From: Pedobacter sp. PAMC26386 | GTDB lineage: Bacteria > Bacteroidota > Bacteroidia > Sphingobacteriales > Sphingobacteriaceae | NCBI GenBank assembly: GCA_014302835.1 | Contig: CP060294.1 | Span: 4,117,067 to 4,181,066, forward strand | DNA: 64,000 bases | Direction: 5' to 3' | Shown here: piece after piece, positions 33,650-64,000 of the stretch | How positions within the stretch are numbered: the stretch's first letter is position 1 | Layout of the letters: the number at the start of each line of letters is the position of its first letter | Notes under the pieces: generated by a model | What the model was told of the DNA's origin: nothing | Seen by the model: only the letters and a program-made list of their open reading frames with translations | The model's database searches: none | Translations under genes and position numbers: made by a program

Positions 33650-33724
33650 GGGAAATTAGCTCAGCTGGTTCAGAGCACCTCGTTTACACCGAGGGGGTCG
33701 GGGGTTCGAACCCCTCATTTCCCA
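33650..33724 (+). tRNA. tRNA-Val (anticodon TAC), copy 1
   Basis: A 75-nt cloverleaf with acceptor GGGAAAT/ATTTCCC and discriminator A. The anticodon stem is CCTCG/CGAGG with loop TTTACAC giving TAC, and the T arm has GGGGGTTCGAACCCC. CCA is not encoded as such (ACA follows). Confidence 0.97.
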
Positions 33725-33803: not shown

Positions 33804-33878
33804 GGGAAATTAGCTCAGCTGGTTCAGAGCACCTCGTTTACACCGAGGGGGTCGGGGGTTCGAACCCCTCATTTCCCA
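33804..33878 (+). tRNA. tRNA-Val (anticodon TAC), copy 2
   Basis: It is identical base for base to copy 1, and nine bases before it (AGACCAAAG) are also shared, so the pair arose by a local duplication of about 85 bp. No second promoter is clear, so it may be read through from the first. Confidence 0.97.
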
Positions 33879-51207: not shown

Positions 51208-52707
51208 TCACCCCTTATTTGCCAAAAATGTTTTAACAATTGTACACTTCGGTGATCCGTCTTTTGGCACCACATCGAAAGACACCCTAAGCCCTAAATT
51301 AAGACTAATAGTATTTGGTCTTGGGGCACTATGCTGAATACCCGTTACTGTACCTGTGTACACTACGTTTTCTGCTACCTGCTCTAATGTACCGCCTATT
51401 CTTAGACCTCCATTATCCAGAACATCCATCATCACAACTTGTTTACTAATGTTAGTTATGTTTGCTATTTTGGTTACCTCAGGATTAAAAATAAGCTGAT
51501 AAGAAGTCTCGTCTATGCCATATCGCTGATCTACATTGTAATATTCCCCGTTTTCGTCATTAACCAGATCTGAATATACTGTCTCCAAAATTCTCGGCTT
51601 TCCGGAAATATAAAAGACGCCCATTGGTAAAGCATAATTAGGATAAAAAGGAACAGTATTTACAACCCCTTGTGTCCCCGGAATGCTGAATACATTATCG
51701 AATAGTTGAGATTCCGTAGTTGCAGTACCTGTAATTTTAATTTTAGTGTTAATTTTTAAATTAACCGTCTCAACAGATGTATTTGATGTCCCCCCCAATA
51801 TACCACTAAAAAACCCTTTAATGATCCCTCCAAGTGCACTTTTTGAGGCAGAAATAACTGGGTCTTTTATCAGCGCCGGCAGAAAGCTTAATTTTGCGGC
51901 CGAATCACCGCCAATTTTTAAGGCACCGTCAAGGATACCGTTGGCAATACCGCCGAAGAAACTAGGACCACCCGATTTGCTGGATATAGTACCAGTAAGA
52001 TCTCCGGTTTGTGTACCATTTAGTGAGATGTTCGTAATGCTGTTTGGATTTATCTGCCACTCGAGACGGAATTGATCATATGGACGCCCAGCCGTACCTG
52101 GATCATAAGCCATTTCAAACTCCGCCGCATACCAGGCTCCTGTAGTAGAGACTTTATAGGGTTGTATTTGTCCAACTGTCATGCTTCGCACATTGTAATC
52201 AACTAAATCCTGAGCAGCAAAATTTAACAATGGAGAAGCTGCTGAGCTTGCGCCACGGAGATTTAAGAAATGGGTGATATTACTCGAAGGGTAATTACCA
52301 CCAGGAGCGATATAAAAATAGACTCTTAAAAGACCTCTGTATTTGTTATACAACATGAAATATGATGGATTATAGACAGTTGCTGCACTGAACGTATTAT
52401 AGACTAATTCCCAGCCATTGATACTTTTATAATCGAAGACCATGTTATCATCAATTTTCGCCCCTCCCAAACCTCCCTGCCAAGGCACAGGAATTGGACT
52501 AGTACCAGCTGGCGCTGGCATGAAGGAGATATTTTCCCAATCTAATGGCGGAGTCGGATTTCCTGCCAGTAGATTAGCATTCTTCGATAAGGACGATTGA
52601 CTTGCGTCTGTCAGTTTCTCAGGTAAGACTTCTTTTCTACAAGAAGAAACAATAAGAAAAGCTAAAATTAACAAAAGACACCTTCTGAGTGTAAATTTTA
52701 AATTCAT
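51208..52707 (-). CDS. Large lipoprotein of unknown function
   Basis: The 499-residue protein has a lipobox (FLIVSSC, Cys23) and a Pro/Ser-rich start. A Gly/Ala-rich middle follows (SASKSALGGIIKGFFSGILGG near 285-305), then a beta-rich C-terminal half. I recognise no family and see no catalytic motif. The length and lipobox fit a surface or periplasmic lipoprotein. It is transcribed away from the riboswitch-SusCD unit, so the two share only their intergenic gap. Confidence 0.75.
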   Translation of the reverse strand: MNLKFTLRRCLLLILAFLIVSSCRKEVLPEKLTDASQSSLSKNANLLAGNPTPPLDWENISFMPAPAGTSPIPVPWQGGLGGAKIDDNMVFDYKSINGWELVYNTFSAATVYNPSYFMLYNKYRGLLRVYFYIAPGGNYPSSNITHFLNLRGASSAASPLLNFAAQDLVDYNVRSMTVGQIQPYKVSTTGAWYAAEFEMAYDPGTAGRPYDQFRLEWQINPNSITNISLNGTQTGDLTGTISSKSGGPSFFGGIANGILDGALKIGGDSAAKLSFLPALIKDPVISASKSALGGIIKGFFSGILGGTSNTSVETVNLKINTKIKITGTATTESQLFDNVFSIPGTQGVVNTVPFYPNYALPMGVFYISGKPRILETVYSDLVNDENGEYYNVDQRYGIDETSYQLIFNPEVTKIANITNISKQVVMMDVLDNGGLRIGGTLEQVAENVVYTGTVTGIQHSAPRPNTISLNLGLRVSFDVVPKDGSPKCTIVKTFLANKG

Positions 52708-52977
52708 AATAGGTTATTTTAGATTTATTATAATTTATAATTAATTAAAAATATAAAAAAAATCATAAACAAGCAACAAATCAAGTAGTTACAATTAATA
52801 AAAATTATTAGAATCTCAAACAAGCGATAGTCAAGCATATATTTACTTACGTATATCTTTCTGTAATCAGCTTATCTGTCTGTCAAATCTCAAAAAAATA
52901 CCTCAATAACATAAATACTATAGAATTAGTAGTTTATTTATATATTTGCAAACGATTTAGCTGTTCATTGAATTTTT
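52708..52977. other. Divergent intergenic region before the riboswitch
   Basis: This is very AT-rich DNA with no ORF. It must hold the promoter of the lipoprotein (minus) and the -7 box TATATTTG at 52941-52948 (plus), but no TTTG lies at the right distance for that box. Confidence 0.5.
52941..52948 (+). promoter_or_regulatory. -7 box TATATTTG upstream of the SAM-I riboswitch
   Basis: This exactly matches TAnnTTTG and lies 29 bp before the aptamer P1 strand, so the riboswitch would begin close to the transcript 5' end. The -33 box is not convincing. Confidence 0.5.
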
Positions 52978-53084
52978 ACTTATCCAGAAAGACCGAGGGA
53001 AAGGCCCTATGAAGTCTTAGCAACCTATACACTCTTGATGTAAAAGGTGCTAACTCCTATCCACATGAAGCGGAAAAGATAAGT
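52978..53084 (+). promoter_or_regulatory. SAM-I (S-box) riboswitch aptamer
   Basis: The aptamer has P1 ACTTATC (52978-52984) and GATAAGT (53078-53084). It also has P2 AAGAC/GTCTT with GAGGGA and GGCCC, the core TGAAGTCTTAGCAACC, a P3 stem with ACA/TGT, and the closing GGTGCTAACTCC and GGAAAAGATAAG. These are the conserved blocks of the S-box family, which binds S-adenosylmethionine. It points at the SusC gene at 53392. P4 is weak. A second GATAAGT at 53141-53147 could pair with the same P1 strand. I see no strong terminator directly after the aptamer, so the expression platform is unclear. Confidence 0.85.
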
Positions 53085-53214
53085 GATAGATATAACCTTT
53101 TACTAATTGGTTTACTGTCATCTGTTTCATTAAAATTTCTGATAAGTAAGAACCTCTCAAAGGAGACTAATTCATAAATACAGATGAAACTAAACACACC
53201 AATTATATAATTAG

Positions 53215-53316
53215 ATGAAAACAACCTTTACTCAATTCTTCAAGAGCCACATTGGCTCCCCTCTACTCTCAGCTATGCAATCCTACAGATATAAGCAGGA
53301 ATCCTGCTTTTGTTAA
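53215..53316 (+). CDS. 33-residue leader ORF between the riboswitch and SusC, ending Cys-Phe-Cys
   Basis: ATG 53215 opens a short frame: MKTTFTQFFKSHIGS, then PLLSAMQSYRYKQESCFC and stop TAA. It lies 131 bp after the aptamer and 75 bp before SusC. The last codons overlap a small hairpin (AAGCAGG, loop AAT, CCTGCTT, 53293-53309) followed by a T-rich TTTTGTT. This is the geometry of a leader peptide with a nearby terminator. Coding status is not proved, and no ribosome-binding site is obvious. Confidence 0.4.
   Translation: MKTTFTQFFKSHIGSPLLSAMQSYRYKQESCFC
53293..53315 (+). terminator. Weak terminator-like hairpin in the leader
   Basis: A 7-bp stem AAGCAGG/CCTGCTT with a 3-base loop is followed by TTTTGTT, overlapping the end of the 33-codon leader ORF. 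It could be an attenuator. It is too short and AT-poor in its tail to be a certain terminator. Confidence 0.35.
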
Positions 53317-53391
53317 TGCTTATTCGAATCAGTACTCAAAAAAACACACCAATTTTTCAATCCGGGACATCGTTCCGCCATTCAATTAAAT

Positions 53392-56300
53392 ATGTATAAA
53401 ACTTACAAATACTTATTTGGGATTATATTATCCTTTATAATCGTACAGACTGCGACCGCACAATCTGCTAAAATTTCTGGAGTGGTCACAGAGAAGTCCA
53501 ACGGGCAACCCATTCCAGGAGTAAGCATTTCTGTTAAAGGCACAAACATTGGTACACAAACAGATGGCAATGGTAAATTCAGCATTACTGCCAAGCCGAA
53601 TGATATATTGAAAATTGTATCTATAGGATACAGACCTCAAGAGCTTAAGATCACCGCAGCAACTGCTATAGCTATACAGCTGGAGGAATCTTCTAATGAA
53701 TTAAGTGAGATCGTAGTTACCGCGTTAAACATTCCTAAAGAGAAGAAATCATTGGGATATGCTGTTCAGGAACTAAAGTCAAAAGATATCTCAGAAGCAA
53801 AAGAAACAAATCTGATCAATTCATTTTCCGGTAAAATAGCCGGAGTACAAGTTACGAACAGTCAGGGTGACATGGGGTCTTCCAGGATTATTATCAGAGG
53901 AGAAACCTCTATCTCTGGTATTAATCAGCCTTTGTTTGTGGTTGATGGTATTCCCGTAGACAATACCCAAAACTTAGGTACAGGCGGATCACGTGATTTT
54001 GCGAATACAATATCAGATATCAACTCTGAAGATATTGAATCCATGAGTGTACTAAAAGGCCCGAATGCCGCCGCACTTTATGGCTCCAGGGCCGCTGCAG
54101 GGGTGATTCTGATTACCACAAAAAAGGGGAAGAACGCACAGGGATTAGGCATCAGTGTCAATTCAAACACTACATTTTCAACCTTATTGACTATACCGTC
54201 TTATCAAAACTCATTTGGACAAGGCGCAAACGGCAAATTCAGCTATGTAGATGGTAAAGGCGGTGGCATCAATGATGGTGTCGATGAAAGCTGGGGTCCA
54301 AGATTAGATGGCCGATTGCTGCCACAATTCAATTCTAACGGAACACCAACACCCTTTATCGCCCATCCAAATAATGTACGAGATTTCTTTAATACAGGAC
54401 GTACATTGAATAACGGAATCGCCATTTCCGGATCAGGAGAAAAGTATGATTTGCGTTTTTCTTATAACAACCTGGATCAAACGGGTGTTATTCCAAACTC
54501 CTCGCAATCAAAAAACTCTTTCCTGCTAAATGCAACTTATAAAATCACACCAAAACTGACTTTTAATGCCTCAGCTAATTATGTAAACAGCAGCGCAGCA
54601 AATTTACCTGGTTCAGGCGGAAAAAGAGCAAGCAGTACCATGTTACAGTTCACCTGGTTTGGCCGTCAGGTCGATGTAGCTCAATTAAAAACCTATAAAG
54701 ATGCCGATGGGAATAATATCAACTGGAATAACAGCTATTACAGTAACCCATACTTTGTTGCTTACGAAAACACAGTAGGTCAGATCCGTAACAGACTCAT
54801 TGGAAGTGCAGAATTAAACTATAAAATAATTGATGGTTTATCTGCAAATTTCAGAACAGGAAATGATTATTATACCGACCGCAGAAAGATTAAAATTGCT
54901 TACGGAACTAATGGTACACCATTTGGCTCTTACGAGGAAGATGCCTACACTTTTAGTGAAAACAATACAGAAGGCCGACTGGATTTCACTAGAAAATTGA
55001 ACTCCGATTTTAATCTTGACCTTTTATTAGGTGGAAACATCCGTACTACTACTTTTGAGAACAATGATCAGAAGGCACCTAAATTAGCTGTCGATAATCT
55101 TTATACTTTAAGTAACTCGCGTGATCCACTGATCTCTTCTAACTATTTTTCCAAGCAAAGAGTATACAGTACTTTTGGTTCTGCACAAATAGGCTTCAGA
55201 AATTACGCCTACTTGAATTTAACTGCCCGGAATGACTGGTCTTCTACCTTACCGGTAAAGAACCGTTCTTATTATTATCCTTCAGTAAATGCAAGTTTAA
55301 TTCTGACTGAAGCATTTGATATCAAGAGTGATGTTTTAAATTTTGCTAAACTTCGCGGCGGATGGTCGCAGGTGGGCAAAGATGCCAGTCCTTATCAACT
55401 ATACAATAATTTTGCTTTCACGGCTCCTTTTGATAGTAATCCTCAGCAAAGTCTCAATGATACGGACTTGAATCCGAACCTTAAACCAGAAACGACCAAG
55501 TCTACTGAAGCAGGTTTTGAATTGGGCCTTTTCAAAAACAGGATACGTTTTGACTTCAGTGTATACAATACAAACAGTATCGACCAGATTTTAAGTCTGG
55601 ACGTTAGTCCGACTACCGGTTACCTTAAGAAACTGGTTAACGGTGGTACCATTAATAACAAAGGAATAGAAGCTCAATTAGGCCTTACTCCAATTAAAAC
55701 AAAAAACTTTACCTGGGATATCAATGTAAATTATTCAATGAACCGCAGTAAAGTAAAATCTCTGTATCAGGACGTGCAGAGTTATGAACTGGGATCAGAT
55801 GGATCAGTGCAGATATTAGCCACTGTAGGACAACCTTACGGCACAATCTTCGGAACAGCCTATGACAGAAATGCTGCCGGAGACATCATAGTTGGAGCAA
55901 ATGGGACACCACAGGTTAGTCCATCTAAAAAGATCCTTGGAAAATATACACCAAACTGGTTAGGTGGGATTACAAATAGCTTTACTTACAAGAGAATCAA
56001 CCTAAGCGTGCTCGTAGATGCTCATATTGGCGGTAACATATATTCTGGAACTAATAGTACAGGAACTTACACTGGTGTATTAGCGTCTACCCTTCCAGGC
56101 CGCGGCACAGAAAACGGTGGAATCAGTTATTACAATGACGCATCTGGTAAAGCAATTCAAATTGCTGTTGGTACAGCGGCTCCCGGCAATGCCGCAGTAT
56201 ATGATGACGGAATGATCTTTAAAGGTTCATTAGCAAATGGCTCTCCAAATAATACTATTATAAGTGCTTCTCAGTATTACAAATCCCTTAACAATGTAGA

Positions 56301-56562
56301 TGAGGCTTTCGTCTATAATGCTACCTACATCAAACTGAGAGAAATAAAACTAGGTTATACTTTACCTAACCAATGGATCAAATCCATAGGCCTGCAAAGT
56401 GCAACAATCTCGGCAGTTGGTAGAAATTTGTTCATCCTGCATAAGAATGCACCAAATATAGATCCTGAATCTGCTTTTAATACGGGTAATGGGCAAGGTC
56501 TTGAAGATCTCGGACTCCCTACAGTCCGCACCATTGGTTTCAATCTTAACTTTAAATTCTAA
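53392..56562 (+). CDS. SusC/RagA-family TonB-dependent outer-membrane transporter
   Basis: The 1056-residue protein has a signal peptide (about 1-23, TATAQ). A carboxypeptidase-D regulatory-like domain follows (SGVVTEKSNGQPIPGVSISVKGTNIGTQTDGNGKFSI), then a TonB-box region (ELSEIVVTA). The plug has the SusC signature FVVDGIPVDN, and a large beta barrel ends FNLNFKF. It imports a ligand through the outer membrane with the SusD partner encoded 5 bp downstream. A SAM-I riboswitch lies upstream, so methionine-related supply is the likely regulator. No sugar-degrading enzyme is encoded in this unit. Confidence 0.94.
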   Translation: MYKTYKYLFGIILSFIIVQTATAQSAKISGVVTEKSNGQPIPGVSISVKGTNIGTQTDGNGKFSITAKPNDILKIVSIGYRPQELKITAATAIAIQLEESSNELSEIVVTALNIPKEKKSLGYAVQELKSKDISEAKETNLINSFSGKIAGVQVTNSQGDMGSSRIIIRGETSISGINQPLFVVDGIPVDNTQNLGTGGSRDFANTISDINSEDIESMSVLKGPNAAALYGSRAAAGVILITTKKGKNAQGLGISVNSNTTFSTLLTIPSYQNSFGQGANGKFSYVDGKGGGINDGVDESWGPRLDGRLLPQFNSNGTPTPFIAHPNNVRDFFNTGRTLNNGIAISGSGEKYDLRFSYNNLDQTGVIPNSSQSKNSFLLNATYKITPKLTFNASANYVNSSAANLPGSGGKRASSTMLQFTWFGRQVDVAQLKTYKDADGNNINWNNSYYSNPYFVAYENTVGQIRNRLIGSAELNYKIIDGLSANFRTGNDYYTDRRKIKIAYGTNGTPFGSYEEDAYTFSENNTEGRLDFTRKLNSDFNLDLLLGGNIRTTTFENNDQKAPKLAVDNLYTLSNSRDPLISSNYFSKQRVYSTFGSAQIGFRNYAYLNLTARNDWSSTLPVKNRSYYYPSVNASLILTEAFDIKSDVLNFAKLRGGWSQVGKDASPYQLYNNFAFTAPFDSNPQQSLNDTDLNPNLKPETTKSTEAGFELGLFKNRIRFDFSVYNTNSIDQILSLDVSPTTGYLKKLVNGGTINNKGIEAQLGLTPIKTKNFTWDINVNYSMNRSKVKSLYQDVQSYELGSDGSVQILATVGQPYGTIFGTAYDRNAAGDIIVGANGTPQVSPSKKILGKYTPNWLGGITNSFTYKRINLSVLVDAHIGGNIYSGTNSTGTYTGVLASTLPGRGTENGGISYYNDASGKAIQIAVGTAAPGNAAVYDDGMIFKGSLANGSPNNTIISASQYYKSLNNVDEAFVYNATYIKLREIKLGYTLPNQWIKSIGLQSATISAVGRNLFILHKNAPNIDPESAFNTGNGQGLEDLGLPTVRTIGFNLNFKF

Positions 56563-56567
56563 TCTCC

Positions 56568-58001
56568 ATGAAAACAAAATATATACCTCTTTTACTGTCA
56601 GGCTTATTGCTACTTACAGTTACATCTTGCAAAAAGACACTGGATGAAACCAATGTGAATCCAAATGCATCAGAGTCAGCACAACCAGAATTCCTGTTAA
56701 CAGGGGCAATTAAAAATACAGCTGATACTTACTGGGGCACCACTAACAACATGAATTCAAGTTTACTTTTTGTGCAGCACTGGGCAAAAATTCAGTATAC
56801 TGATCCAGACAGATATATCTTTAGTAATACAGGTTTTCAGGATTTATGGACTACAGGATACCGTAAAGGGGTCGTGAACCTTAATCAGCTGATTAAGCTG
56901 GCAGATGTCAAGGGAAATTCAAATTATAAAGGCGTTGCCCTGGTGCTTAGGTCCTGGATATTTGCCATGGAAACAGATGCTTATGGCGACGTTCCCTACA
57001 CACAAGCCGGCGATATCGGTCAATACCTGACTCCTAAATACGATACCCAAAGGGACGTATATCTCGGAATATTAAACGATCTTAAAACCGCACAAGCCAG
57101 TTTAGACCCAGCCGGGAAAGCAATTCTGGGAGATATAATTTATGCAAACTCTATTGCTTCATGGAAAAAATTCACCAACTCTTTGCGTTTAAGAATCGCC
57201 TTGCGCATTGCAGACCGCGAACCGGAAATAGCCAGACAGGTTATTGCCAGCATCCAAGCCGAAGGCGGAACTTATATCAGTTCAAATGCTGAAAATGCAC
57301 AATTGAATTACAAAGACTCACCTAATCAAAATCCGGTTAGTAACACCTTTGACACCCGCGATGATTACCGCGTCAGTAAAACGCTGGTAGATCAGTTAAC
57401 TGCCTCAAGTGATCCACGTCTTCCTATCTATGTCAGTAAAGCTGCTGCAACACAACTCTACACCGGTGTCCCTAATGGATTATTAACAGGTGATGCGGCC
57501 GCTCTTGGATTAACCAATACATCAAAACCTGGCGCTTACTTTCTTGCTCCTAAAGCACCAGCGGTTATTATCAGTTATGCAGAAATATTATTTGACCGCG
57601 CAGAGGCAGCCGCAAGAGGATTTACAGGTGAAGATCCAGCTTCACTTTACAACCAGGCTGTAGAAGCATCTTTATTACAATATGGAGTTTCTAAAACAGA
57701 CATTGCAACCTATAAAGCCAGAACAGATATTCAATATGATCCATCAAATTATAAAAAGTCAATCGGGAATCAAAAATGGATTGCCCTCTTTGGCCAGGGA
57801 TTAGAAGCTTTCGCAGAATGGAGAAGATTGGACTACCCCATACTTACCCCGGCAGCTGCAGGTTCCTTAAACGGGCAGATCCCTGTTAGATTTATTTATC
57901 CCGGAACTGAACAGTCACTAAATCCTGTAGGTTATAAAGCTGCGGTGGCCCACCAGGGAACAGATGCTTTAACTACTAAACTTTGGTTTGATGTAAATTA
58001 A
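56568..58001 (+). CDS. SusD/RagB-family surface lipoprotein, partner of the riboswitch-linked SusC
   Basis: The 477-residue protein has a lipobox (TVTSCKK, Cys about 21) and belongs to the SusD-like family (SusD_2 type): KKTLDETNVNPNASESAQPEFLLTGAIKNTA, then TPR-like helices with SWKKFTNSLRLRIALRIAD. It ends with the usual QKWIALFGQGLEAFAEWRRLDYP. It caps the SusC channel. It lies 5 bp after SusC. This family has been linked to peptides and other non-sugar ligands as well as glycans, so the substrate is open. Confidence 0.93.
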   Translation: MKTKYIPLLLSGLLLLTVTSCKKTLDETNVNPNASESAQPEFLLTGAIKNTADTYWGTTNNMNSSLLFVQHWAKIQYTDPDRYIFSNTGFQDLWTTGYRKGVVNLNQLIKLADVKGNSNYKGVALVLRSWIFAMETDAYGDVPYTQAGDIGQYLTPKYDTQRDVYLGILNDLKTAQASLDPAGKAILGDIIYANSIASWKKFTNSLRLRIALRIADREPEIARQVIASIQAEGGTYISSNAENAQLNYKDSPNQNPVSNTFDTRDDYRVSKTLVDQLTASSDPRLPIYVSKAAATQLYTGVPNGLLTGDAAALGLTNTSKPGAYFLAPKAPAVIISYAEILFDRAEAAARGFTGEDPASLYNQAVEASLLQYGVSKTDIATYKARTDIQYDPSNYKKSIGNQKWIALFGQGLEAFAEWRRLDYPILTPAAAGSLNGQIPVRFIYPGTEQSLNPVGYKAAVAHQGTDALTTKLWFDVN

Positions 58002-58159: not shown

Positions 58160-58570
58160 ATGAGAATACTACTCACTTTGATAACCTGTTGTGTACTGTT
58201 TTTTTCTTGCAGAAGAGCACACTCTTCAACCGACCTGACTACAGGAACAGCACAAGTAAAAACAGAAGCAAATGCAGTATCATCAACAGATACTGATGCC
58301 GATGACAATGTAAAAGTTGCTGGTGTCCCACAAAAAGCTTATACCGTTGCTGCTTATGTGGCTAAGACCGGCAAAGCACCTCAGGGATACGTTGGTGGAA
58401 CGGTTTTTCAGAACAGGGAAGGACGATTGCCGCAAGGCACAGCTTACAAAGAATATGATGTGAACCCTAAGGTCAGAGGGCAAAACAGAGGGGCAGAACG
58501 GATTATAATCGGAGCTGATGGCGTTCGGTATTATACCGGAGACCATTATAGAATATTTACAAAATTTTAA
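58160..58570 (+). CDS. Barnase/RNase N1-like ribonuclease with a lipoprotein signal
   Basis: The 136-residue protein has a lipobox (CCVLFFSC, Cys about 17), a Thr/Asp-rich linker and then a microbial ribonuclease domain (about 50-136). The motifs are GYVGGTVFQNREGRLP, a YKEYDV block (catalytic Glu), RGAERIIIGADGVRYY and TGDHYRIF (catalytic His). The family cuts RNA after guanosine. The gene for a barstar inhibitor starts 4 bp after the stop. The lipoprotein signal predicts export, with the RNase tethered outside the cytoplasm, perhaps to damage neighbouring cells. Confidence 0.9.
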   Translation: MRILLTLITCCVLFFSCRRAHSSTDLTTGTAQVKTEANAVSSTDTDADDNVKVAGVPQKAYTVAAYVAKTGKAPQGYVGGTVFQNREGRLPQGTAYKEYDVNPKVRGQNRGAERIIIGADGVRYYTGDHYRIFTKF

Positions 58571-58574
58571 AGAT

Positions 58575-59021
58575 ATGAACGGATTTTGCCTCTTTGAAGC
58601 CGGAAAAGAAAAGGATTTAATCAACGACAACGTACGTATTGTACGCATAGATGGTCGTGAAGTTGTAACTGTCGATGAGTTTATTCACGAATTAGCAAAA
58701 CAGCTGGACTTTCCTGATTATTATAGCAGCAGTCTGGATTCACTGGAAGAATTGCTAAATGATTTAAGCTGGCTGGATGAATCCAGGTTCGCCATTGTAG
58801 TTCGGAATTACTCTTTTTTCTTATGTGAAGAAAAAAATCCTACCCGGAAAACCAATTTACTGGGTTTATTAAACGACGTAGCCGAACAATGGGATAATGT
58901 ACCTAATTATCCGGGAGAAGAGGATTTCAGGAGTAAAGCTGTTTTTAACATCTACATTGAAAAGGCACCCGCAGCAGTTGCTGAACTCGAAAAACTTAAG
59001 ATCACCTATAACGAAGTATAA
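58575..59021 (+). CDS. Barstar-family ribonuclease inhibitor (immunity protein)
   Basis: The 148-residue start at ATG 58575 (MNGFCLFEAG) gives a compact barstar fold. It has VRIDGREVVTVDEFIHELAKQLDFPDYYSSSLDSLEELLNDLSWLDESRFAIVV, the Asp/Glu-rich face that plugs the RNase active site, followed by FNIYIEKAP. It lacks a signal peptide, so it stays in the cytoplasm and would protect the producer from its own or its kin's RNase. It is coupled at 4 bp to the RNase gene. Confidence 0.92.
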   Translation: MNGFCLFEAGKEKDLINDNVRIVRIDGREVVTVDEFIHELAKQLDFPDYYSSSLDSLEELLNDLSWLDESRFAIVVRNYSFFLCEEKNPTRKTNLLGLLNDVAEQWDNVPNYPGEEDFRSKAVFNIYIEKAPAAVAELEKLKITYNEV

Positions 59022-59083: not shown

Positions 59084-61348
59084 TTATTCGGCTCCACCAG
59101 ATTTAGGCCGGTCTGCCTCACTTACACCCCAGGTAGCAGATGGCTGTGCATCCATATACAACGTCAGCATCCCTCCTGCAACCAGATCTTTATGTCTCAG
59201 GTAATTTTTAGTATAAGGCTTACCATTTAACAGCGCCTTTTGGATATACTTATTTTTAGGACTGTTGCCAATCACCTTAACCTCAAATTTCTTAGCACCA
59301 GGAAGGTTAATAACCGCCTGATCTACCAATGGCGACCCAAATACATATTCTCCATTAGCCGGATTAACAGGATAAAATCCTAAAGCTGAAAACACATACC
59401 ATGAAGACATCTGTCCTAAATCTTCATTCCCACAAAGACCATCAGGTTTAGAAGTGTACAATGAATCTGTAACCTGGCGTACTACCTGCGCTGTTCTCCA
59501 GGGTTTTCCAGCATAAGCATACAGATAAGGTGTATGGTGATTAGGCTCATTCCCTTGCGCATACTGACCAATTAAACCACTGATATCAGGAGAACCGCCA
59601 CTTTCTACCACAGAACTAATGCTAAACAAAGAATCCAGTTTCCTGGTAAAACCAGCCTCACCACCAAATAAATGGATCAGACCTTCAGGATCCTGTGGTA
59701 CTAACCACGTATATTGCCATGCATTACCTTCAGTATAGTCATCTTCACGATGTTTAGAAGCTACCGGGTCAAAGGGCTTACGCCAGCTGCCATCCGCAAG
59801 CTTACCACGCATAAATTCTACCTGCGGATCAAAATATTCAGCGTATAACTTAGCTCTTTTACTAAAATAAAGATAATCCTCTTCTTTATGCATTGCTTTT
59901 GCCATACGGGCGATACACCAGTCATCAATTGCATATTCCAATCCTTTTGCAACAGCCTCGTTCACTTTATCGGCAGGAATATATTTTACTTGCTGAGCAT
60001 ACTCTATACCATCCTCCTTTTGCATTGCAGAATGTTTGATCGCCTCATAAGCCAGGTTTACATCATAATTTCTGAATCCTTTCAGATACGCATCAACTAT
60101 AATCGGCACCGCATGGTATCCAATCATCGTATTTGTTTCATTTCCCATCAAATGCCATACAGGTAGTTTACCCTGCTGCTTATAGATAGCCAGAAATGAA
60201 CTGACAATATCTGATACCTTATCAGGATGTACAATTGTATACAAAGGATGGAAAGCACGGTAAGTATCCCATAAAGAAAAAGTCGTATAATTATCAAATC
60301 CTGGTTTGTGATAAACTTTCTTATCTGTACCACGGTAATCACCATTCGCATCATTAAATAGCGAAGGAGCGATCATGGTATGATATAAAGCAGTATAGAA
60401 AACTTTTTTAGTCTCCATACTACCCTGAATTACAATTTTAGACAATTCTTTATTCCATTTGGCCGTTGCTGAAGTAACTACTTTTGCGAAATCCCATGCC
60501 GGAATCTCTGCTGTTATATTAGCCAGTGCATTTTCATAACTTACTGGAGAGATACCCACTTTCATTTGCAGGACATTTTTCTCAATCGATTTGAAATTCA
60601 GTACAGCTTTCATTTTTCTACCCTTTGCCTCCATACCAGTAGCTACCTGCGTACTGTCATAAAGTGACATACTGCTTAAAGGTTGTGATAACTTAAGCGC
60701 AAAATATAACCGCTGATCTTTAGCCCATCCCGTAGACAAACGATAACCTACCAAAGTAGTACTGTTGACCTGTTTGATGTAAGTTTCTACCGGTTTATCC
60801 CAGCCTATACCATCACTCAAATCCAGCATCACATGCGGATTATCCTGTTTAGCACTAAAAGTATACCGGTGAAAACCAACTCTTTCAGAAGCCGTCAGTT
60901 CTGCTTTGATCTTATATTTATCCAGCACAACACTATAATATCCTGGTTTGCTTACTTCATTGGCATGAGAAAAAGTAGAAAGGTATCCGTTTTCCTGATC
61001 TGTCTTGGTTCCCTTATTTAGCTGTACCTTACCCGTAGCTGGCATAACCAATACATCGTTTAAATCACCAATTCCGGTGCCACTTAAATGCGTATGTGTA
61101 AAACCAACAATCGTATTACTCGAATAATGGTAACCACTGCACCAGTCCCAGCCTTCAAAAACATTAGTTGGCCCCAACTGTACTGCGCCAAATGGCACAT
61201 TAGCACCGACAAATACATGCCCGTGTGCAGCCGAACCGATGATCGGATCTACATATTGACTTAAATTACTCTGCGCATTCAGATTAAAACCAAAAATGAA
61301 ACTGCAAATAAATACTAAACCCGTTTTTTTTCTACTCATTTTACCCAT
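59084..61348 (-). CDS. GH92 alpha-mannosidase family protein
   Basis: The 754-residue exported protein (signal to about residue 25, NLNAQ; ATG 61339 is an alternative) has the GH92 N-terminal beta domain with HTHLSGTG near 84-92. The catalytic domain follows, with GNETNTMIGYHAVPIIVDAY, EDDYTEGNAWQYTW near 537 and GNEDLGQMSSWYVFSALGFYPVNPANGEYVFGSP near 641. GH92 enzymes are calcium-dependent exo-alpha-mannosidases, usually acting on 1,2-, 1,3- or 1,4-mannose of N-glycans or yeast mannan. It lies directly downstream of a SusCD pair, so it fits a mannan/N-glycan utilisation locus. A hairpin separates it from susD. Confidence 0.93.
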   Translation of the reverse strand: MGKMSRKKTGLVFICSFIFGFNLNAQSNLSQYVDPIIGSAAHGHVFVGANVPFGAVQLGPTNVFEGWDWCSGYHYSSNTIVGFTHTHLSGTGIGDLNDVLVMPATGKVQLNKGTKTDQENGYLSTFSHANEVSKPGYYSVVLDKYKIKAELTASERVGFHRYTFSAKQDNPHVMLDLSDGIGWDKPVETYIKQVNSTTLVGYRLSTGWAKDQRLYFALKLSQPLSSMSLYDSTQVATGMEAKGRKMKAVLNFKSIEKNVLQMKVGISPVSYENALANITAEIPAWDFAKVVTSATAKWNKELSKIVIQGSMETKKVFYTALYHTMIAPSLFNDANGDYRGTDKKVYHKPGFDNYTTFSLWDTYRAFHPLYTIVHPDKVSDIVSSFLAIYKQQGKLPVWHLMGNETNTMIGYHAVPIIVDAYLKGFRNYDVNLAYEAIKHSAMQKEDGIEYAQQVKYIPADKVNEAVAKGLEYAIDDWCIARMAKAMHKEEDYLYFSKRAKLYAEYFDPQVEFMRGKLADGSWRKPFDPVASKHREDDYTEGNAWQYTWLVPQDPEGLIHLFGGEAGFTRKLDSLFSISSVVESGGSPDISGLIGQYAQGNEPNHHTPYLYAYAGKPWRTAQVVRQVTDSLYTSKPDGLCGNEDLGQMSSWYVFSALGFYPVNPANGEYVFGSPLVDQAVINLPGAKKFEVKVIGNSPKNKYIQKALLNGKPYTKNYLRHKDLVAGGMLTLYMDAQPSATWGVSEADRPKSGGAE

Positions 61349-61363
61349 ATGAATTGTAAAAAT

Positions 61364-61413
61364 AAAAAAACACCGGCCTTTTTATGCCAAAAAGGGCAAT
61401 AAAAGACCGGTGT
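61364..61413 (-). terminator. Terminator or attenuator between susD and GH92
   Basis: On the minus strand ACACCGGTCTTTTA pairs with TAAAAAGGCCGGTGT around a GCCC/GGC inner stem, followed by seven T. It may partly reduce GH92 expression relative to SusCD. Confidence 0.8.
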
Positions 61414-61431
61414 GTATGTAATTTTATTGTT

Positions 61432-63087
61432 TTAGAAATTTCCTTTAGCTACATCCCACCATAATCTTGTACCACCATTGTCAGGGCCACCCAATAACTG
61501 GATACCTTTATCTAATTCAGTACTGTTTGTATTACGTTCGTTCTGTGGAAATGGCAATCTTCTGATTTGAATATCTGTAATGATTGTACCTCCACTGTTA
61601 TTTTGAACTACAGGGAATAATTTAGGATACCCCGTACGACGGAATTCAGACCATGCTTCTTGACCTTCTGGGAAAATCGCCAACCATTTCTGTGTAATGA
61701 TACGTTCCAATTTCAGCTCATTAGAAGCTGACTCATCCCATTTTACAGTTACAGAAGTTGGTGAGGCTGCGTTGTTAGCTGCATTTCTAGGATCCAGATA
61801 AGCTGCTGGCACATTGGTATTATTAGCAAGGTAAGCACTCGCATCACCTAACCCATATTGCTGGAATGAAGTATTGACCCCAGATTCATATAAACTCTGA
61901 GCAGATCCACCCGCATTTGCCCATCCTCTTAAAGCTGCTTCAGCACGTAAGAAATAAACTTCCGCAGCCGTCATTAACTGAACAGAGCTGGATTTTGAGA
62001 ATGTAGGTGTTCCATCATTCACGTTCAGACCAGAATATCCTACGTAATCATCTTTTGAAGCGATGTTTGCTCCAATACGAATTCCTTTATACTGACCTGC
62101 TACATTCTTATCAGTAGCCTTATCAAAATATTTTGGCAACCTTGGATCTGCATAACCAGAAAGGTAAGATTCTATCGCAGCACCCATTCTTGTATCTCCC
62201 CAATCTTTAGAAATAAATACTAACGGATTGCTGAAACCTGTACCAAGAACTTTAACAGCCATATTATCAGCAGGAGTAGATAACAACCCTCCATTTGCAA
62301 GATTCATAGCTTTCTCTCCTTCTAACCGTGCTTTTGCAGGATCAACTTTCACCAGGCGCAACGCTAATCTCAGACGCAAAGAATTTGCATATTTCAACCA
62401 GGTAGTCAGGTTACCATCGTAAACAAGATCAAATTCCTTAAAGTTGAAAGGAAGAGTTTTTCCAGCAGATACAAAGTCATTAATTTTCTTTTGCGCATCA
62501 TCCAGTTCAGTAAAGAACTGGTAATAAACATCCTTCTGACTGTCATATGGGTTATTCACCTTTAAGCCAACAGTGCTGTAAGGTATAGGTCCATATATAT
62601 CGGTCACTCTACTCATTGCAGTGACCTTGATCAGTTGAGATACTGCCCAAACTGATGGATAAGTCTGATCAATACCATTGTTTTTTAGTTTCCTTACATT
62701 GGCCATTATATTTAAATAACCAACCTTAAATGCTTCACCATTCCAACCTTGAACCATGAAATAGTTAGTATTGTTATTACCACCATTAAATGGATTAGGT
62801 GCCATAAAATAGCCAGAAAAATTATCAGCATTTAAACTCTGCTGAACCTGGTATGAGTTTGGATCACCACCGCCAGAAAAATTAACAACTGATCTCTGCT
62901 CCATCTGGAAGAAGAATTTCAAATCATTATAATCAGAAATTAATTCTTTATCAGCGATACCAACTGGATCTGTATTAATATTTTCAAAACTTTTTTTGCA
63001 GGAAGTGATGGTCAACACCACCAGACATAGGACACCCATTACGTGTAGCCTGCTGGTCGGAATTGATATATTGAATTTCGTTTTCAT
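61432..63087 (-). CDS. SusD/RagB-family surface lipoprotein of the GH92 locus
   Basis: The 551-residue protein has a lipobox (VVLTITSCKK, Cys about 29). The family core is NINTDPVGIADKEL, then YANSLRLRLALRLVKVDPAKARLEGEKA, then QKWLAIFPEGQEAWSEFRRTGYPKLFPV, ending with a C-terminal Trp-rich motif. It binds the ligand above the SusC pore. It lies 37 bp downstream of the partial susC on the minus strand. Confidence 0.94.
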   Translation of the reverse strand: MKTKFNISIPTSRLHVMGVLCLVVLTITSCKKSFENINTDPVGIADKELISDYNDLKFFFQMEQRSVVNFSGGGDPNSYQVQQSLNADNFSGYFMAPNPFNGGNNNTNYFMVQGWNGEAFKVGYLNIMANVRKLKNNGIDQTYPSVWAVSQLIKVTAMSRVTDIYGPIPYSTVGLKVNNPYDSQKDVYYQFFTELDDAQKKINDFVSAGKTLPFNFKEFDLVYDGNLTTWLKYANSLRLRLALRLVKVDPAKARLEGEKAMNLANGGLLSTPADNMAVKVLGTGFSNPLVFISKDWGDTRMGAAIESYLSGYADPRLPKYFDKATDKNVAGQYKGIRIGANIASKDDYVGYSGLNVNDGTPTFSKSSSVQLMTAAEVYFLRAEAALRGWANAGGSAQSLYESGVNTSFQQYGLGDASAYLANNTNVPAAYLDPRNAANNAASPTSVTVKWDESASNELKLERIITQKWLAIFPEGQEAWSEFRRTGYPKLFPVVQNNSGGTIITDIQIRRLPFPQNERNTNSTELDKGIQLLGGPDNGGTRLWWDVAKGNF

Positions 63088-63124
63088 TTTTATTATCTTT
63101 TATTGTAAACAGAACTACTGGTTA

Positions 63125-64000
63125 TTAAAAATTAGCATTTAAAGAGAAGCCATAGTTACGTGTCGCTGGTGGCATAAAAATGTCTACCCCAGAAAGTCCG
63201 TTCCCTGTTGACATACTCAACTCCGGATCGAATGGCGCTTTCTTATAGAAATAAGCAAGATTTCTACCCGTAACAGATAATTTTAAGTTCTTAATAAAAC
63301 CTGGTTTTAAAGGCACTGTATAACTAAAAGATAGTTCTCTCAAACGAACTACAGTGGCACTATACATATGTTCACTTGAAATACCTTCTCTACCACCTAC
63401 AACACTATACCATTTCTGAGCATCTACTTTAGAGACTGCATTTCCTGCAGGATCCACCCCGTTAACAGTAACACCACCCTGATCACGGGCAGTACCTGTA
63501 ACCTTGGCAACTCCATATTGTTCAAGCATAGATTCAGTAATAGACATTACTCTACCGCCAATTTTACCATCAACAAGGAAATTTAAAGAGAAGTTTTTAT
63601 AGTTGAAGCTATTGCTCCATCCCAATTGCCATTTTGGATTTGCATTTCCCAGGAAAGTGTTATTACCACCATCGGCAGCAATTGGCTTACCATTACCATC
63701 AATCATTACTCTTCCCTGAGCATCACGTTTTAATGAAGAACCATAGATATCACCAAACGATCCACCCTCTTTAAATTTAGAGACATAGTTTGCACCCGAC
63801 GCCCCGCTTAAAGTAAATTCAGAGATTTCTGAAGAAAGGGCAAGAATTTTATTCCTGTTCATAGAATAATTTACTCCCGTTTTCCATTTTAAACCATCGC
63901 CGTTCAACACATCATAACCCAAAATAATCTCTATACCTTTATTCTGAACATTTCCTGCATTGAAATAGTATTGGTTATACAAGGAAGCTTGTGAAGCGTC
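63125..64000 (-). CDS. SusC/RagA-family TonB-dependent transporter, C-terminal part only
   Basis: The gene continues beyond the window edge: the frame is open from 64000, and the methionine at 63982 is a TTG-encoded internal position. The visible 291 residues are the end of a beta barrel (NKGIEIILGYDVLNGDGLKWKTGVNYSMNRNKIL and a terminal NYGFSLNANF). It is the channel partner of the SusD at 61432-63087 and imports the mannose-containing glycans that GH92 would process. Confidence 0.93.
   Translation of the reverse strand, partial: DASQASLYNQYYFNAGNVQNKGIEIILGYDVLNGDGLKWKTGVNYSMNRNKILALSSEISEFTLSGASGANYVSKFKEGGSFGDIYGSSLKRDAQGRVMIDGNGKPIAADGGNNTFLGNANPKWQLGWSNSFNYKNFSLNFLVDGKIGGRVMSITESMLEQYGVAKVTGTARDQGGVTVNGVDPAGNAVSKVDAQKWYSVVGGREGISSEHMYSATVVRLRELSFSYTVPLKPGFIKNLKLSVTGRNLAYFYKKAPFDPELSMSTGNGLSGVDIFMPPATRNYGFSLNANF

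Follow-up and report, generated by a model that had tools for sequence, protein, structure and literature searches.

The S-adenosylmethionine (SAM) riboswitch SAM-I (S-box; Rfam family RF00162) is a regulator of methionine and cysteine genes. Short leader open reading frames (ORFs) with cysteine codons have been described in Actinobacteria, ahead of the cys operons of Mycobacterium and of cbs in Bifidobacterium (accessible parts of PMC1262725 and PMC4633059), and tandem attenuators in one leader have been described for the mgtCBR operon of Salmonella (accessible part of PMC3641672). SusC/SusD (SusCD) systems that carry peptides are also known, namely RagAB and BT2263/64, with a Bt2263/64-peptide complex mentioned in the accessible part of PMC7782687, so that a SusCD system for cargo other than glycans is not new in itself. 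Here we describe a 64,000-nucleotide stretch of DNA from Pedobacter sp. PAMC26386 (contig CP060294.1, positions 4,117,067 to 4,181,066, forward strand), the whole of which is referred to as the window. Within it an S-box lies upstream of a SusC/SusD gene pair, and a short ORF ending in cysteine (Cys) codons lies between the two. We consider it fairly probable that the riboswitch and this leader ORF act in series, and that SusCD, perhaps a peptide importer, is expressed only at low levels of both SAM and charged Cys-tRNA.

With other SAM-I riboswitches the element in the window shares a full aptamer and metY as the other target found in its own genome; 43 of 60 long SusC leaders in Pedobacter also have an intrinsic terminator behind the aptamer. 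It differs in that the target is a SusCD importer, that a Cys-codon ORF follows, and that the window's own clade lacks the terminator after the aptamer. As far as the accessible parts of the cited papers describe them, the actinobacterial leaders are likewise short ORFs with a run of Cys codons by the stop codon, located before sulfur genes, and the mycobacterial ones also have no conserved terminator; the ORF reported here, in contrast, is found in Bacteroidota, ahead of an outer-membrane transporter and joined with a riboswitch. The mgtCBR leader also has two serial sensors, one of them an ORF rich in the codons of one amino acid, but according to the accessible text the signals there are ATP and proline and act additively, whereas here they would be SAM, by way of an aptamer, and, as proposed, cysteine. 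Of the peptide-carrying complexes, BT2263/BT2264 resembles the transporter in that BT_2264 is by far the nearest solved SusC, and differs in that BT_2263 ranks well down among the solved relatives of the SusD.

No paper joining SAM riboswitch, SusC, methionine and Bacteroidetes was found; most subscription papers lay outside the search, so we make no claim of priority. Among the matches listed, none concerned an S-box/Cys-ORF SusCD system as judged by title or start of abstract, and in those matches and the accessible passages Cys-codon leader ORFs were described for Actinobacteria only. S-boxes in metagenome fragments of Bacteroidetes/Chlorobi were reported to have targets that had all been seen previously apart from one gene (accessible part of PMC2211319), and the main text of PMC3766115 mentions neither SusC nor TonB. 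Leader-peptide-like short ORFs in Bacteroidota are mentioned in general terms in the accessible parts of PMC9723704 and PMC7366714.

The S-box and SusCD unit in the window

The elements on which the proposal is built are as follows.

52977..53085, + strand: SAM-I (S-box) aptamer (RF00162, 82.9 bits, E 4.7e-18)
53215..53316, + strand: putative leader ORF MKTTFTQFFKSHIGSPLLSAMQSYRYKQESCFC with codons 31 and 33 for Cys, coordinates including the stop (frame open; Cys-rich tails in relatives)
53392..56562, + strand: SusC/RagA-type TonB-dependent outer-membrane transporter (TIGR04056; Pfam plug, barrel and CarbopepD_reg_2)
56568..58001, + strand: SusD-like surface lipoprotein (PF12771, E 8.2e-111)

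An S-box ahead of SusCD had been put forward in an earlier reading of the same letters (the original prediction), and the covariance search with the SAM riboswitch model bore this out. The score was far over the Rfam gathering score of 44.4, and the match covered model positions 1-108, the full length. The spacing from aptamer to the SusC ATG was measured as 306 nt, where about 307 bp had been given. Also as predicted, no glycoside hydrolase is attached to the pair, there being none among the Pfam domains of the two-gene unit. SusC matched TIGR04056 with 645.4 bits (cut-off 368.25) and TIGR04057 with 60.3 bits (cut-off 46.2), while the SusD gene directly 3' of it matched PF12771 with 371 bits (cut-off 27) and gave no NCBIfam match at E 0.001. 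Two S-boxes were found in the genome, which is a single contig: the one in the window and one before a metY-type gene.

Conservation of the S-box with SusC orthologs

Orthologs of the window SusC formed a sharp class within Pedobacter, a genus of soil bacteria: 78 genomes gave matches of 61-100% identity and 1427 bits or more, with the next matches at no more than 42% and 711 bits. A same-strand S-box was located upstream of 71 of these 78 genes at a distance of 132-405 nt (median 325), and the Rfam search added those of genomes G090, G065, G113 and G089 (loci L148, L150, L151 and L152). Retention of the switch ahead of orthologous SusC genes had been set beforehand as the test on which the original prediction could fail, and it was found in 75 of 78. 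For the orthologs of G139 and G115 Rfam detected no S-box in the stretches searched, and in G120, which is counted among the 78, the contig ends too close to SusC for a judgment. An S-box is present somewhere in 144 of the 145 Pedobacter genomes.

The original prediction had also called for a search of other Bacteroidota, and the pairing of S-box and SusC was encountered there as well. A sample of 301 genomes of the wider family contributed 40 more SusC orthologs (56-73% identity). Eight of these had an S-box within 500 nt, 15 had one at 942-1108 nt with an intervening ORF (in L163, the one scanned, it is 186 aa long and thiol-disulfide oxidoreductase-like), and one had it on the opposite strand. 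For the remaining 16 of 40, no S-box was present in the upstream stretch covered, which was 1.5 kb for most of L163-L188 and 804-929 nt for L189-L202, so that a more distant S-box could escape; at L174, L178 and L202 much of the stretch is taken up by another gene. Four of 12 loci from Ferruginibacter, Segetibacter, Filimonas, Niabella, Paraflavitalea, Longitalea and Niastella also had an S-box. Niabella and Segetibacter were checked to be Chitinophagaceae, a family to which we take the other five genera to belong. Absence of an S-box was judged from the Rfam runs alone; a regular expression found 96 of 112 known S-boxes and missed several in Chitinophagaceae.

A conserved leader ORF ending in Cys codons

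The 33-codon ORF between aptamer and SusC has the C-terminal end ESCFC in the window. Close relatives have tails such as ..PPMQTAYCC, ..YMQKNCCC and, within a shorter frame, ..YMQKICIC. Examples from other Pedobacter are ..RMRMPC, ..KRMHCCSI and ..IPMCCCGI, from Mucilaginibacter ..MQSMRCCC and ..MCCCCCC, and from Chitinophagaceae ..MRCCCC and ..ACCCCC. The conserved part is thus the C-terminal Cys codons, often with Met codons, while the body varies.

Frequencies of such tails were compared with shuffled leaders. Among 85 non-redundant leaders (thinned from 129), 62 contained an ORF with at least two Cys in its last eight codons versus 4.8 expected, and 42 had at least three versus 0.38 expected (maximum 2 in 200 shuffles). 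The reverse strand of the same leaders gave six with two Cys in the tail and none with more. The observed count is lowered in this set, as it includes the leaders of two non-orthologous SusC genes (L061 and L109) and the 300-nt limit clips a few long ORFs. With fixed criteria applied to 130 leaders from Sphingobacteriaceae and Chitinophagaceae (78 from Pedobacter, 40 from other family members and 12 from Chitinophagaceae), a Cys-rich ORF was present in 114. Of these, 92 satisfied the strict criterion of at least two Cys, compared with 13.3 in shuffles (maximum 22) and 15 on the reverse strand, a chance level at which single strict calls (e.g. L198, L200, L331) may be accidental. The other 22 had an RMR/RMC motif with Cys, versus 0.1 in shuffles.

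Both Cys codons are in use (119 TGT and 88 TGC in 63 ORFs), and in 22 related ORFs the synonymous share of single-site codon differences was 0.41 versus 0.21 expected; these two observations argue that conservation extends to the peptide and is not limited to the DNA. In codon content and conservation the element has what marks a leader-peptide attenuator, a short ORF with candidate regulatory codons near its stop. By sequence comparison S-box, leader ORF and transporter are conserved together, and the Cys-codon ORF is a second conserved module, probably regulatory, that was absent from the original prediction.

Structures in the leader RNA and proposed mechanism

The following smaller features of the leader enter the proposed mechanism.

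52941..52948, + strand: likely promoter -7 box TATATTTG (fits TAnnTTTG; same stretch in close relatives)
53076..53097, + strand: P1 3' strand and following bases, proposed SAM-free structure with 53109-53128 (pairing predictions)
53109..53128, + strand: putative switching element GGTTTACTGTCATCTGTTTC, can pair with 53076-53097 or 53180-53200
53180..53200, + strand: downstream partner of the switching element just 5' of the short ORF, proposed SAM-bound structure (pairing predictions)
53293..53309, + strand: hairpin AAGCAGG-AAT-CCTGCTT over the last ORF codons, then TTGTT (terminator-like site)
53363..53377, + strand: small hairpin located 14 nt 5' of the SusC ATG (consensus stem in 4 long leaders of the clade)

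The motif TAnnTTTG is the consensus of the main sigma factor in a Flavobacterium (accessible part of PMC9723704), and window positions 52941-52948 likely form the -7 box of the promoter.

An intrinsic terminator with a U tract after the aptamer was predicted in the 43 long Pedobacter leaders mentioned above against 2.4 expected, and in aligned leaders pairing is possible between its loop and the P1 3' strand, which is the ordinary S-box arrangement. For the window and its seven closest relatives, the duplex between 53076-53097 and 53109-53128 was predicted at -13.3 to -16.1 kcal/mol, with 3-36 of 300 shuffles as good, and its variants among relatives read TGATAG/CTGTCA, TGATAG/CTATCA and TGACAG/CTGTCA. 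In the window the competing duplex between 53109-53128 and 53180-53200 reached -17.2 kcal/mol, a value equalled by 2 of 300 shuffles; its counterpart reached -17.7 in G017 (9/300) and -17.1 in G015 (3/300). The hairpin at 53293-53309 had a local fold of -11.2 kcal/mol (z -2.7; equalled by 6 of 200 shuffles), and the four-sequence consensus has a stem at the same place, relatives having different sequences there. The hairpin at 53363-53377 occurs in GGGAC/GTTCC and GGAAT/ATTCC versions and is located in a segment that is missing from four relatives.

Downstream of the Cys codons, one Pedobacter group stood out. Of 26 leaders chosen from it, 24 had a second terminator-like hairpin, the 5' arm of which contained Cys and stop codons in 22; in L029 and L031 the frame is ended by an earlier stop, and L004, missed by the search, has a similar stretch by eye. 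Across 80 leaders the Cys codons tended to pair with bases after the stop (mean z -0.69, versus -0.01 for a control stretch). A general intrinsic terminator after the leader ORF was considered and rejected, as U-tract hairpins numbered 12 of 80 versus 9.9 expected over all clades. In many Pedobacter (e.g. L363, L366) a variable hairpin followed by GTGGAATTGYTTTGCCC was observed about 40-55 nt before SusC; this combination gave six matches in six genomes, five of them at SusC and none in the window's genome, and was not seen in the window's clade.

From these elements the following mechanism is proposed. At high SAM the aptamer would close P1. An intrinsic terminator would then form right after the aptamer in many Pedobacter, while in the window's clade 53109-53128 would be freed to pair with 53180-53200, with the result that the leader ORF is poorly translated; SAM would thus appear to control translation of the leader ORF in this clade. 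If Cys-tRNA is plentiful the ribosome would complete the leader ORF and a downstream structure would block SusC expression, the block being an intrinsic terminator in the one Pedobacter group and a hairpin or a Rho- or translation-based block elsewhere. SusC and SusD would be made only under scarcity of both SAM and Cys-tRNA, with a ribosome occupying the Cys codons. Two terminators in series would impose the same requirement, that both signals be low. For the window's clade it is possible that the stall at Cys codons is relayed to SusC by a Rho-dependent or translational step. If true, Cys-codon ORF and riboswitch together constitute a compact natural two-signal gate.

A different switching element had been suggested in the original prediction, in which a second copy of the P1 3' strand might swap pairing.

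53141..53147, + strand: second GATAAGT copy (first copy 53078-53084; role not supported)

The motif does occur twice, but the swap did not hold up, as the second copy is not conserved and the seven closest relatives read otherwise. The corresponding duplex with the P1 5' strand and flank was equalled by 0 of 300 shuffles in the window and by 24-155 of 300 in those relatives, and the swap was discarded as a mechanism conserved among relatives.

Separable modules and other targets

Four close relatives with SusC at 89-90% identity retain the S-box and are missing the ORF-bearing stretch, which is flanked in the window by a direct repeat.

53192..53211, + strand: first copy of a direct repeat on either side of the short ORF (stretch between the copies absent from four short-leader relatives)
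53342..53361, + strand: second copy of this direct repeat, 3' of the short ORF

Conversely, a Cys-rich ORF is present with no same-strand S-box in the DNA covered at L167, L169, L174, L177, L178 and the G139 locus; at L174 and L178 the upstream gene could itself follow an S-box. From their sequences, S-box and Cys ORF are separable modules, each of which can be missing where the other is present.

Genes other than SusC gave further examples. All five metY S-box leaders read, that of the window's own genome included, contained a Cys-rich ORF that starts 6-8 nt after the aptamer. No such ORF was seen in the S-box leaders of 20 cysteine desulfurase-type, four metH-type and six DUF4833-size-class genes, where the desulfurase and metH names come from our own reading of the sequences without a domain scan; the S-box leader of L103, a redoxin-domain gene, had one weak candidate. 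The pattern ATGTGYTGYTGY gave 77 matches in six genomes versus 10 for the reversed pattern. Of 70 matches read, most were without a leader-like frame, and several other short frames are probably chance. Clear Cys leaders from this search preceded metY (five of six genomes), a porin, two proteins alike by eye (the one scanned being AhpC/TSA) and a gene that is SusC-like by eye. A polycysteine tail may serve as a simple marker for finding a cysteine regulon in Bacteroidota. S-boxes were also observed at L079, L083, L084, L089, L097 and L104 before a gene of 190-214 aa, the L079 product being DUF4833 (PF16117), and a DUF4833-type gene is a possible S-box target.

We lean slightly towards a broader proposal drawn from these comparisons: a two-input RNA NOR gate, SAM riboswitch first and polycysteine leader peptide second, would govern the importer in Sphingobacteriaceae and Chitinophagaceae, with SusCD scavenging both sulfur amino acids; the sensors would have been swapped as modules in evolution, and the polycysteine leader would mark a wider cysteine regulon that includes metY, an AhpC/TSA-domain protein and a porin.

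Cargo of the importer

The predicted link of this SusCD unit to sulfur uptake remains the natural reading, since the only other S-box found in the genome precedes metY. The Cys-codon ORF, however, is about as widespread as the S-box and can be present where none was found; a cargo that supplies both Cys and Met, for example peptides, fits this better than methionine alone. The nearest solved SusC chain was BT_2264 (E 7e-131, 441.6 bits), with the runner-up chain at 174.1 bits; RagA matched with 139 bits (E 1.8e-39). An S-box operon at L109 (G115) encodes a different SusC, a SusD-like protein (by eye), a thioredoxin-fold protein and M14 and S9 peptidases, and at L085, L096 and L101 of Pedobacter a third gene follows SusCD, the one scanned being a thioredoxin-fold protein with DUF4369. 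Peptides supplying both sulfur amino acids are the likely cargo, which is the weakest step of the explanation; SusC closeness, SusD closeness and the L109 operon, taken together, on balance favour peptides without amounting to proof. Regulation offers a hint at cargo for this SusC ortholog group where sequence alone does not, and points to SusCD as a scavenger of sulfur amino acids rather than a glycan importer.

Contrary evidence and alternative explanations

A number of observations weigh against the proposal. Sixteen of the 130 leaders have no Cys-rich ORF. The four close relatives belong here, as do three of the five orthologs from genus g16; the remaining g16 calls, at L198 and L200, lie far upstream and may be chance. 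In L029 and L031 the frame stops before the Cys codon, yet the 22 motif cases still include the genome of L029 (G107), whose frame ends ahead of the final Cys codon. L061 and L109, the two other S-box-led SusC genes, are without a Cys-rich ORF; L061 (G043) heads an operon with a different SusC at 30% identity to that of the window. The terminator after the aptamer was found in none of the four long leaders of the window's clade, the window included, so we infer switching of the window aptamer through alternative pairings, which have few close relatives in support. For the first of these, 36 of 300 shuffles did as well in the window itself, and the second was no better than shuffles in G043 (148/300) and in the four short-leader relatives (183-254/300). 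A simple terminator model does not fit the window, because the hairpin at 53293-53309 overlaps the Cys codons and a stall there would follow passage of the polymerase, and the lack of U-tract enrichment over all clades indicates a Cys step without a general terminator. With respect to cargo, the solved chain nearest to SusD was 5j5u (E 1.1e-48), and BT_2263 was 15th of 26 solved relatives (E 3.2e-26), with several of the 14 chains above it named as glycan-binding; the SusC of the peptidase operon at L109 is just 26% identical to that of the window.

Three other explanations were considered. The one closest to the original prediction is that SusCD is controlled by the S-box alone and that the short ORF is a leader segment that is neutral or goes untranslated. 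The strength and conservation of the S-box agree with it, as do the four close relatives that keep the S-box and a SusC of 89-90% identity without the ORF segment, but Cys-rich tails far over chance in the 130 leaders, the synonymous-change bias, the same kind of ORF in metY leaders and the ORFs found without a same-strand S-box make it unlikely. It is more doubtful still, to the point of being very improbable, that the Cys-rich peptide is itself the product, for instance a secreted peptide that binds metal or thiols and is taken back up by SusCD. Runs of Cys could bind metal, peptide and receptor adjoin, and thioredoxin-fold genes are located in some of the same operons. Against this, it is mainly the end of the ORF that is conserved while its body varies, SusD is the last gene of the unit with no export or maturation gene seen beside the unit in the window, and the same kind of ORF precedes metY, the AhpC/TSA-domain protein and the porin.

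The third explanation accepts the leader as proposed and replaces the cargo, with a sulfated glycan, glutathione or a sulfonate as examples. The SusC family is broad, and cargo cannot be read from regulation; proteins named as glycan-binding, but not BT_2263, are among the nearest solved relatives of SusD, and a GH92 locus is close by. The nearest solved SusC is nevertheless the one reported with peptide, the two-gene unit contains no sulfatase or glycosidase, and a relative has M14 and S9 peptidases in an S-box operon, though with a different SusC. We regard cargo of this kind as a tentative alternative, and retain peptide import under joint control of SAM and Cys-tRNA as the preferred explanation.

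tRNA-Cys-like elements near Cys leaders

At L190-L192, Mucilaginibacter SusC orthologs, a tRNA-Cys-like element with anticodon GCA was observed before a poly-Cys ORF, and at L314, also Mucilaginibacter, one was observed before a TlpA-like gene that precedes SusC. The element apparently has one extra base in the acceptor 3' strand, with T-stem changes that look compensatory by eye, and was not called by ARAGORN in L190-L192. L190, L191, L192 and L314 had no S-box in the upstream stretch covered. Genuine tRNA-Cys genes are present elsewhere in genomes G312, G276 and G346. A 23-base pattern taken from the element (at most two mismatches) matched in 57 of 149 Mucilaginibacter genomes, with none for the reversed control; L369, L372, L374, L385 and L386 are examples. 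Twenty-three pattern loci were read, some of which adjoin SusD, TlpA-like or desulfurase-like genes (by eye). Some matches were called as ordinary tRNA-Cys, and the matches may be extra tRNA genes. The window's own genome has a second tRNA-Cys (GCA) at L397:2260-2331 and a tRNA-Met (CAT) at L398:2339-2410, which have the acceptor ends AGTCATG and CATGACGT in common.

Neighbouring genes

Divergent from the SusCD unit, at 51208-52707 on the minus strand, is a gene whose 499-aa product gave no match in Pfam at E 0.001; several relatives instead have a divergent SusC paralog (40-41%) on that side. SusD is followed by a barnase-type ribonuclease and barstar pair (58160-58570 and 58518-59021), which has counterparts by size and position in close relatives. 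A separate glycan locus, made up of a GH92 gene, a SusD of its own and, by eye, one end of a SusC gene, occupies 59084-64000 on the minus strand. Two tRNA genes at 33650-33724 and 33804-33878 were identical in sequence and score in the Rfam alignment.

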